A stretch of 64,000 nt of DNA, taken from Gammaproteobacteria bacterium. Lineage in GTDB: Bacteria > Pseudomonadota > Gammaproteobacteria > JAUZRS01. Each line of letters begins with the position of its first letter. Within the stretch, counting starts at the first letter, position 1. The notes beneath the pieces are model-generated. The model was not told the DNA's origin. It saw only the letters and a list, made by a program, of their open reading frames with translations, and ran no database searches. The stretch is taken from assembly GCA_030949385.1 (NCBI GenBank), contig JAUZSP010000001.1, positions 248,001-312,000 of the forward strand. The letters run 5' to 3'. Shown piece after piece: positions 52,061 to 54,802 of this stretch. Both the position numbers and the translations under genes were made by a program.

Positions 52061-52822
52061 TCACCCCTTCCGCCGTCGATAAATGTGCGCCTGCCCCTCT
52101 TGATACAGATAGGAATCATCAAAACCTTCAGCATCCAGCACCTTTCCGACGATGATCAACGAGGTACGGACAAACTTTTTCGCCCGTACCTTGGCCACAA
52201 TGTCTTTCAATGTCCCCACCACCCGATCTTGATCCGGCCATGAGGTGCGATAACAGACCGCCACGGGGCAATCCTCGCCGTAATGCGGCAGCAGATCGGC
52301 GACGATTTTATGGATCCGCGTCACCCCCAGATGAATCACCAAGGTCGCGCCAGAACGGGCTAACTCCGGCAACCTCTCCCGTTCAGGAAAGGGCGTTTTA
52401 CCCTCATAACGGGTCATGATCACCGTCTGCGACACCCCCGAAAGAGTTAATTCTTTACCCAACCACGCTGCCGAAGCGGAAGCCGCCGTCACTCCAGGAA
52501 TAATTTCATACTCAATCTGCAAGGCGTGCAGACGGCGAATCTGCTCACCGATGGCACCGTAAATAGAGGGATCACCGCTGTGCAGACGCGCCACATCTTG
52601 CCCCTGCTGGTCGGCCTGCTGCATCAGCACAATCTGCTGATCCAGATTCAGCGGCGCACTGTCCACCACCTGCGCGCCACGCTGGCGCGCAGCCTCTAAA
52701 TTCTGTTCCGGAATCAGAGAACCGGCAAACAGCACCAAGGGAGCACCATCCACCAACCGCTGCCCTTTGAGGGTCATTAACTCAGGATCACCAGGACCGG
52801 CTCCAATAAAATAGATCGTCAT
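52061..52822 (-). CDS. cobM: precorrin-4 / cobalt-precorrin-4 C11-methyltransferase
   Basis: The protein has 253 residues, a class III tetrapyrrole SAM methyltransferase (CobM/CbiF). Signatures: FIGAGPGDPELMTLKG, LVLFAGSLIP, ARLHSGDPSIYGAIGEQ and the loop PGVTAASASAAWLG. It methylates C11 of the corrin precursor. CbiG and CbiX in the same operon point to the cobalt-early (anaerobic) route, where the product name is CbiF. Its ATG lies in a 25-bp repeat, and originally overlapped the cobJ stop as ATGA; an insertion now separates them by about 600 bases. It is the last gene of the operon in this window. Confidence 0.95.
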   Translation of the reverse strand: MTIYFIGAGPGDPELMTLKGQRLVDGAPLVLFAGSLIPEQNLEAARQRGAQVVDSAPLNLDQQIVLMQQADQQGQDVARLHSGDPSIYGAIGEQIRRLHALQIEYEIIPGVTAASASAAWLGKELTLSGVSQTVIMTRYEGKTPFPERERLPELARSGATLVIHLGVTRIHKIVADLLPHYGEDCPVAVCYRTSWPDQDRVVGTLKDIVAKVRAKKFVRTSLIIVGKVLDAEGFDDSYLYQEGQAHIYRRRKG

Positions 52823-52843
52823 AATTTTTTTGCATACCCGCGT
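52819..52843. repeat. 25-bp direct repeat, cobM-side copy
   Basis: Identical over 25 bases with 53416-53440. It covers the cobM ATG (52820-52822), a run of seven T residues and GCATACCCGCGT. The flanking bases differ (G before, T after here; A before, G after in the other copy). Confidence 0.9.
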
Positions 52844-52869
52844 TTAGGGAAACACCCTGAAATTGAAGT

Positions 52870-53100
52870 TTAAGGAAGCTGCTCCCGCAAAAATTCTGGA
52901 GCAAAATCAGCCCCGTTACTCCATGACAGAGTATGCCCCTCTAGGGTAAATGACTTAAAAAAGGACACTTCTTTTAATGGCTCAAAAATTTCGCCGTACA
53001 ACTCAGGCAATAAATCAACTTCACCTTGTGCTCCATCATTGAAAGAGACCCAAATTTTGTAATCGTCGATGTATTTTGCTTTTTCAACGTGAAGAAACAT
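52870..53100 (-). CDS. DUF2442 domain protein
   Basis: The protein has 76 residues, a complete DUF2442 domain: DDYKIWVSFNDGAQGEVDLL at the front and SWSNGADFAPEFLREQ at the end, the WPNGADFxPExL hallmark. DUF2442 proteins are often the partner of DUF4160 proteins, and the pair is suspected of being a toxin-antitoxin-like or mobile cassette module; this is not settled. It follows the DUF4160 gene by five bases and lies wholly inside the inserted segment. Confidence 0.85.
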   Translation of the reverse strand: MFLHVEKAKYIDDYKIWVSFNDGAQGEVDLLPELYGEIFEPLKEVSFFKSFTLEGHTLSWSNGADFAPEFLREQLP

Positions 53101-53105
53101 AACAA

Positions 53106-53363
53106 CTACTCCAATGGTTCAATTTTAGACAATGGCTTTCTCTCCATTGCCGATGCCCAATTAGACCTCAACTCATCCTGATGCAGTACATACCAATCGA
53201 GAACCGCATTCAATGCTCTTCTTGGAAACTTTCCTGTAACAACCCCCGTTTCAATATCAACAGTAATTTCATACTCTCCATATTCAGCATGGAAATGTGC
53301 TGGGTAGTGCTCTCGAATGTACATCCGAATCACGATTCCGAGAAAGCGACTTATTTCTGGCAT
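53106..53363 (-). CDS. DUF4160 domain protein
   Basis: The protein has 85 residues. The start at 53363 gives the usual family beginning MPEISRFLGIVIRMY; longer frames run back through the repeat into cobJ. Family motifs HYPAHFHAEYGEYE (His-rich) and ARALN-like PRRALNAVLDWYVLHQDEL are present. The conserved His residues suggest metal or nucleic-acid contact, but function is unknown. It is the upstream member of the DUF4160-DUF2442 pair and is read in the direction of the cobalamin operon. Confidence 0.85.
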   Translation of the reverse strand: MPEISRFLGIVIRMYIREHYPAHFHAEYGEYEITVDIETGVVTGKFPRRALNAVLDWYVLHQDELRSNWASAMERKPLSKIEPLE

Positions 53364-53415
53364 TTGCCTATCCACACCTTCAATACCATTCCATTTATTC
53401 TCAATTCTTGCAACA

Positions 53416-53440
53416 TCATAATTTTTTTGCATACCCGCGT
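53416..53440. repeat. 25-bp direct repeat, cobJ-side copy
   Basis: Perfect copy of 52819-52843. It contains the last eight codons and stop of cobJ (RGYAKKL, TGA at 53416-53418). Confidence 0.9.
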
Positions 53441-54191
53441 GGTGTGTAGAGCCAGTGCTGCTCACCGTTGACAATGTGGCGCGATTCGCTGTTGCCCACC
53501 GACACCAAGGTCAGCATATCCACCTGTTTGCCATCCAACTCAGCCAAGGTGATGATCTGCACCTCTTGCTCAGGGCGCGTCAGTTGCCGCCCCAACAGCA
53601 CGGGGGTCGTTTCAGGACGATGCTGCAATAAAATATCCCGCGCACGGTTCAACTGCCAATCGCGTTTTTTCGAGACCGGATTGTAAAACGAAACCACAAA
53701 ATCCCCCAGCGCCGCGCACTCGATGCGCTTTTCAATGGTCTGCCACGGGGTCAGCAAGTCCGACAACGACACCGTACAAAAATCATGACCCAACAGCGCT
53801 CCCACCAAACTGGAACCCGCTTGCATCGCCGAAATACCCGGGATCACCTCAATGGCCACCTGCAACCATTCGGGGTGATTCTGTTTACCTTGTAACTGCT
53901 GATCCAACAACTCAAACACCAGCGTTGCCATCGCATAAATGCCAATGTCACCACTGGAGATCAGCGCCACAGTTTTGCCCTCGGCAGCCAAATCGAGCGC
54001 CAAACGCGCCCGTGCAATCTCCTCCCCCAGCGGCAAATCGTGATGAACTTTACCCGCCGATAGCTCCGCCAACAGCTCTAAATAGAGACCATAAGCGACC
54101 CAATCGCTGCTCGCAGCCAAAGCTTGCTCCGCTTTTTGGTCAACAAAGCACGATCCCCAGGACCTGCACTGACTAAAAATAACTGCCCCAT
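53416..54191 (-). pseudogene. cobJ: precorrin-3B / cobalt-precorrin-3 C17-methyltransferase, interrupted by a one-base frameshift
   Basis: The true start is the ATG at 54191 (MGQLFLVSAGPGDRALLTKK), but that frame fails after 20 codons. The rest (KAEQALAASSDWVAYG to the end) is in another frame. Adding one A to the A5 run (TTTTT at 54133-54137) restores a continuous 258-residue CobJ/CbiH: AGPGDRALLT, VALISSGDIGIYAMA, IPGISAMQAGSSLVGA, FVVSFYNPVSKKRDWQ and GRQLTRPEQE. The enzyme methylates C17 and contracts the ring. All motifs survive, so a sequence error is likely. It is flanked on both sides by inserted two-gene modules. If the shift is real, internal starts could give an N-terminally truncated, probably inactive protein. 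Confidence 0.9.
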
Positions 54192-54222
54192 CACTTGCTC
54201 ACTTTTATACATTTAGTTTCAC

Positions 54223-54504
54223 TTATAAACCGAGTTCACTGTGAGATCCCAATCGAACCAACTGCAACCTCCCATCAGAAAAAGAGCGGTAAAGCAAAAT
54301 CAAATCAGGCTTAACATGGCAATCACGATGATCGCTCCAATCTCCGACCAAGGCATGATCTCGGTATTTTGTCGGCAAGGGCTCTCCACTCATCAACATC
54401 GTCACAACCGTAATAAAATCCCGCTCCAAAGTCACTCTATGCCGCCCTTTAGATTCCCGCTTATAATCCCGCTTAAACTGTCCTGTTCGTTCAATCCTTG
54501 CCAT
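54223..54504 (-). CDS. YafQ-family (RelE superfamily) mRNA interferase toxin
   Basis: The protein has 93 residues. Residues of the YafQ active site are recognisable: KYRDHALVGDW (first His), DHRDCHVKPDLILLY (second His and Asp) and GSHSEL (third His); the aromatic residue at the end of E. coli YafQ is Leu here. YafQ cuts translating mRNA at Lys codons. The gene overlaps the antitoxin gene by 14 bases and is downstream of it, the usual dinJ-yafQ order. It lies inside the cobalamin operon between cbiG and cobJ. Confidence 0.88.
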   Translation of the reverse strand: MARIERTGQFKRDYKRESKGRHRVTLERDFITVVTMLMSGEPLPTKYRDHALVGDWSDHRDCHVKPDLILLYRSFSDGRLQLVRLGSHSELGL

Positions 54505-54754
54505 TTAAATCGTCCAACAAACCCTCCAAACCATCAAATGACGCCACCTCACCCCGACGCGCCTTCTTCATCGCTGCCAGAGTTAACTCATTCGGCACCA
54601 GTGGCTCAAAGGGCAAAGCCTTCTCTTTAGCGACACGGGTCAACATTAACCGCAAAGCATCGGAAATCGTCAAACCCATGCTGGCCAGCACCACAGAAGC
54701 TTCTTCCTTGATCTTTTCATCAATACGCGCACGCACCACCGCATTCGCAGCCAT
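54491..54754 (-). CDS. RelB/DinJ-family antitoxin
   Basis: The protein has 87 residues. The N-terminus (VVRARIDEKIKEEASVVLAS) is a ribbon-helix-helix DNA-binding domain and MGLTISDALRLMLTRVAKEK follows, as in DinJ. The C-terminal acidic part (ASFDGLEGLLDDLN) should wrap the toxin. It probably represses its own promoter, which would lie in the 48 bases after cbiG (54755-54802), where TAGCTACATTGTAGC forms a short palindrome (TAGCTACA at 54778 onward). Confidence 0.9.
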   Translation of the reverse strand: MAANAVVRARIDEKIKEEASVVLASMGLTISDALRLMLTRVAKEKALPFEPLVPNELTLAAMKKARRGEVASFDGLEGLLDDLNGKD

Positions 54755-54802
54755 AGTCTCTTCTCCAATAAAAAACTGTAGCTACATTGTAGCCCAAAAA
54801 AA

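Follow-up and report, generated by a model that had tools for sequence, protein, structure and literature searches.

It remains to be explained how chromosomal toxin-antitoxin pairs get into genomes when no vehicle can be seen, and the question arises here at the seam between two genes of a cob operon in the window (the whole stretch of 64,000 nucleotides analyzed), whose minus strand carries cbiG, relB-yafQ, cobJ, DUF4160, DUF2442, and cobM in that order. The genes on either side of the seam are cobJ, encoding precorrin-3B C17-methyltransferase (53416 to 54191, minus strand; TIGR01466, 271 bits), and cobM, encoding precorrin-4 C11-methyltransferase (52061 to 52822, minus strand; TIGR01465, 312 bits, over the cut-off). 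Near 54139 to 54145, cobJ has a one-base frameshift: between 54134 and 54150 the minus strand reads GACCAAAAAGC here and GACCCCAAAAGC in a sister species, which lacks the frameshift, and this change may reflect a genuine lesion, a slippery site, or an error of assembly. The RelB-YafQ pair (54205 to 54790, between cbiG and cobJ) is also absent from the sister species and represents a second toxin-antitoxin insertion in the operon, with no long target duplication visible around it.

The DUF4160 and DUF2442 genes lie between two perfect 25-bp direct repeats spaced 597 bp apart, both on the minus strand. One copy (53416 to 53440) is the 3′ end of cobJ including its TGA stop; the other (52819 to 52843) duplicates that end and closes with an ATGA that contains the cobM start. 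On the coding strand the repeat reads ACGCGGGTATGCAAAAAAATTATGA, comprising one base, seven cobJ codons, and the stop, and the two copies are identical. Shuffled window sequence gives an expectation of zero matches for the 25-mer, and a search of the whole genome allowing up to three mismatches found two copies in all, both at the insert borders, ruling out a dispersed repeat or an att site. Joining the flanks through a single copy yields TTATGACG, in which cobJ and cobM share a four-base ATGA overlap. The unique DNA between the copies (52844 to 53415, minus strand) measures 572 bp and has a G+C content of 40.6%, the cob genes around it standing at 55.9%. We found no inverted repeats at its ends and no recombinase or integrase within or adjoining it, and reading of the sequence beside the pair showed no attC-type cores (GTTRRRY/RYYYAAC), the 25-mer being cobJ coding sequence. 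The preliminary description of this DNA had reported the exact repeat with the cobM start in one copy and the cobJ stop in the other, the identities of the two inserted genes, and the lack of a recombinase, all of which hold; its A+T-rich insert is likewise real, but the contrast is smaller than it appeared from sampled lines, which had put the host sequence at 62% G+C.

Transcribed from the same strand with 5 bp between them, the toxin-type DUF4160 gene (53106 to 53363, 85 amino acids) precedes the antitoxin-type DUF2442 gene (52870 to 53100, 76 amino acids), and both products pass their Pfam cut-offs (PF13711, 68 bits; PF10387, 48.5 bits). Their NCBIfam matches are significant but fall below the equivalog cut-offs, at 67.4 bits against 100 for NF048015 DhiT (E=1.2e-18) and 34 bits against 200 for NF048016 DhiA (E=3.6e-8), so we treat them as members of the DhiT and DhiA superfamilies and not as a certified DhiTA system. 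The toxin-type gene probably starts at the MPEIS codon at 53363, where similarity to its closest relatives begins; a longer reading frame starting inside cobJ was rejected on the same comparison. The insert is tightly trimmed, with 52 bp ahead of the DhiT-type gene and 26 bp past the DhiA-type gene. Between the window and the sister species the two genes together differ by eight silent changes and one replacement (three silent changes and the single amino-acid change fall in the DUF4160 gene), a ratio suggesting that both are under selection. Searches by sequence against solved structures gave no match for either protein, and the PADLOC models gave none for the pair. By analogy with characterized relatives, we infer that the pair in 52844 to 53415 acts as a toxin and its antitoxin.

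We compared the junction across 79 named loci in which cobJ lies beside cobM. The insert is absent from 78 of these, where the gap between the two genes ranges from −4 to 251 bp, and at least 13 relatives have the very ATGA overlap that joining the window flanks predicts. Among the 79, the insert and both repeats of the window recur only in the sister species (genome G001, also represented by loci L036 and L040; JAUZRS01), which is about 96% identical here and is the sole other genome of the genus; no compared locus has both repeats without the insert. Because that one congener also carries the insert, its direction is read from more distant relatives, and the simplest reading is that an insertion with a 25-bp target duplication took place in the ancestor of the genus, predating the split from the sister species. 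Escherichia coli genomes, tried for a comparison at the population level, gave no match. The pair is not a fixture of this junction, most lineages being without it, and the earlier proposal of an insertion that duplicated its target and spared both host genes draws good support from these outgroups and from an independent, closely similar case, between ruvC and ruvA, that has an empty congener.

That case emerged from a survey of DUF4160-DUF2442 loci gathered by whole-genome searches and from additional stretches, with host gene names read from translations and not from family searches. In a first pass, exact direct repeats lay close around several pairs, and the inverted-match control never exceeded 12 bp. 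Gapped matching up to 260 bp found flanking direct repeats at 13 of 96 pairs and inverted ones at none, whereas among 163 pseudo-inserts offset within these loci there were 2 with such repeats, in neither case close on both sides. With distinct pairs and a second control, the share flanked by direct repeats was 12 of 105, compared with 3 of 196 for the offset controls (p=0.0003); inverted matches numbered one. After exclusion of the sister duplicate, a mobile-repeat case (L156), an array case (L160), and a simple-sequence case (L261), the count was 8 of 101 pairs against 3 of 196 (p=0.009); two integron-like loci (L147 and L127) were also kept out of the independent count. Some eight of the repeat-flanked cases thus look like independent duplications of host sequence, and flanking duplications mark about 8 to 12% of pairs, with roughly 90% having no flanking repeat. 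Of 30 DinJ-YafQ pairs, 2 show such scars, a count that does not reach significance by itself (p=0.13). The duplications measure 25, 44, 95, 124, 159, and 170 bp, with an overall range of 25 to >200 bp. A fixed 25-bp stagger, as hinted by exact repeats of 25, 25, and 26 bp in the first survey, was discarded when gapped extension turned these into 25, 44, and 124 bp. No insert ends are shared among the pairs, similarity between related ones being essentially limited to the two genes. Just five relatives were found in viral contigs, so a phage vehicle has little to recommend it.

Individual loci show how varied these insertions are. In two genomes of another genus (L132 and L134) the pair separates ruvC from ruvA and is flanked by a 44-bp direct repeat, derived from the end of ruvC, that finishes about one base past the stop, and a third genome of that genus has contiguous ruvC and ruvA with an ATGA overlap and no insert. 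In the sister species (L153, 1016 to 2800), a DhiTA pair lies behind ppc, and after it come a 170-bp duplicate of the ppc 3′ end, finishing exactly at the stop codon, and then a VapBC-like pair; contig C7 of the window genome breaks inside the same ppc end. Elsewhere the repeated sequence comes from the 5′ regions of a YraN-like gene (about 210 bp; L203) and of trpF (a long duplication; L140), or from outside recognized genes (95 and 94 bp; L196 and L206), and at L163 the junction of a 124-bp repeat truncates the toxin gene itself, which suits capture of an arbitrary fragment. Two further insertions of the family, sister-specific within these two genomes, show no duplication (L150 compared with L219; L004, where 889 bp replace 18 bp). 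The pairs at L127 and L147 are flanked by attC-like sequences (GTTAGGC/GCCTAAC-type cores) and are apparently integron cassettes, and at L156 the pair lies between two direct copies (1246 to 1347 and 1965 to 2064) of an approximately 100-bp repeat that has inverted ends (GTAACCGTTCAG...CTGAACGGATAC), possibly a composite of miniature elements. A DUF4160 gene present in both species has been truncated in the window genome by a deletion of about 190 bp and is intact in the sister (L005 compared with L151). Duplication-less insertions, integron-like cassettes, and mobile-repeat neighbors together indicate that several entry routes exist. The preliminary description had seen in the pair a mobile module with an unusual way of integrating and had suggested checking whether other copies are bordered by duplicated host sequence of similar length. 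That idea is supported only in part. Duplicated borders do recur, above the controls, but their lengths vary from 25 to >200 bp, 25 bp is not a fixed stagger, similarity is essentially confined to the two genes, and some insertions left no duplication at all; a fixed integration chemistry proper to the module is not supported.

We propose, with a probability of roughly two in three, that a DhiT/DhiA-type module was inserted here with a long target duplication of variable length, through capture of a DNA fragment and no dedicated recombinase, and was then retained by addiction. In the most likely course, break repair or recombination would have captured the module on a linear fragment, whose insertion into the cobJ/cobM ATGA overlap would have duplicated 25 bp of target, comprising the 3′ end of cobJ and taking in the cobM start. 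The survivors would be only those products that left both host genes whole: at a gene overlap, an insertion with no duplication would break one host gene, and selection would ensure that survivors at such sites carry one. The addictive pair would subsequently have resisted loss. The sequence comparisons support the insertion itself, the duplication of its target, continued selection on the coding sequence of both genes, and the occurrence of similar events at other loci; that a repair process made the insertion and that addiction kept it in place are inferred. Counting against this reading are the roughly nine in ten pairs that have no flanking repeat and the two sister-specific insertions that left none.

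The repeat could also be the footprint of a crossover, if incoming DNA already held a cobJ 3′ end followed by the pair and was joined either by homology at cobJ with illegitimate joining at the opposite end, or by an integrase in the manner of elements at icd. The repeats at cobJ, ruvC, and ppc all end 0 to 1 bp past the upstream stop codon, a boundary that duplication with random ends does not predict and that import of a gene end fits better; moreover, at ppc 8 of 11 informative sites in the displaced right copy match the sister species, and it is the functional left copy that has differences. That split of 8 against 3 is not significant, however (p=0.11), the cobJ copies do not differ from each other, no genome except the sister was found to have the pair behind cobJ, an integrase is absent, and several other cases duplicate intergenic sequence or 5′ gene sequence. 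We regard an imported gene end as the main rival, though an unlikely origin for this repeat.

Far less probable is mobilization in trans, by a long-stagger transposase, of a non-autonomous element (a transposon or cassette) that has defined ends. The clean 25-bp duplication and the tight flanks of the insert are what such an element would leave, but the variable lengths, the lack of inverted repeats, and the scant similarity outside the two genes argue against a transposase or any defined element. We give the least credence to the view that the pair was ancestral at cobJ/cobM and lost elsewhere, or that the repeat is chance or dispersed sequence: the sister species does share pair and repeats, but the clean junctions of the other 78 relatives speak against ancestral presence, and a chance or dispersed repeat is refuted by an expectation of zero matches and by the lack of further genome copies. 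Fragment capture with target duplication remains our preferred reading.

A wider proposition, which we put forward tentatively and hold to be somewhat doubtful, is that type II toxin-antitoxin pairs, those of the DhiTA family at least, spread between genes as bare two-gene units, free of any recombinase and duplicating the end of a neighboring gene, and that restriction-modification genes do likewise. If true, tightly packed operons could be entered without damage. Insertions at gene seams that are marked by a duplication provide material to test whether the two kinds of gene share a route, and they bear on why selfish pairs sit inside operons that remain unbroken.

Several known systems offer comparisons. 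The prophage-like elements e14 and phage 21 integrate at the 3′ end of a coding gene, icd; as at icd, a gene 3′ end stands on both sides of the insert at cobJ/cobM and the gene is intact, but no integrase is present, the insert is <0.6 kb, and the target genes are others. In Dickeya dadantii, dhiTA has been shown to work as a type II toxin-antitoxin system whose toxin gene comes first (PMC8198452), and carriage of this domain pair makes Thermus plasmids more persistent, its first open reading frame not being introducible without the second (PMC12724237). The window pair shares with both the two domains, their order, and the leading toxin gene; it differs from certified DhiTA in scoring under the NCBIfam equivalog cut-offs. 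Our literature search found no report of long target duplication for toxin-antitoxin pairs, and the recurrence of such duplications around a toxin-antitoxin family appears to be the new element of this work. The closest precedent is provided by restriction-modification genes, for which insertion with long, variable target duplication is reported in Helicobacter pylori (Nobusato et al. 2000, as cited in PMC2654758, PMC1643837, PMC4978471, and the review PMC3874152). In both systems an addictive gene pair with no known mobile element is flanked by direct repeats of host sequence whose length is long and variable. The present case differs in that the pair is of the type II toxin-antitoxin kind, in that its duplication is 25 bp against reported lengths on the order of 100 bp, and in that the insert occupies an overlap of two genes, cobJ and cobM, and leaves both of them whole.
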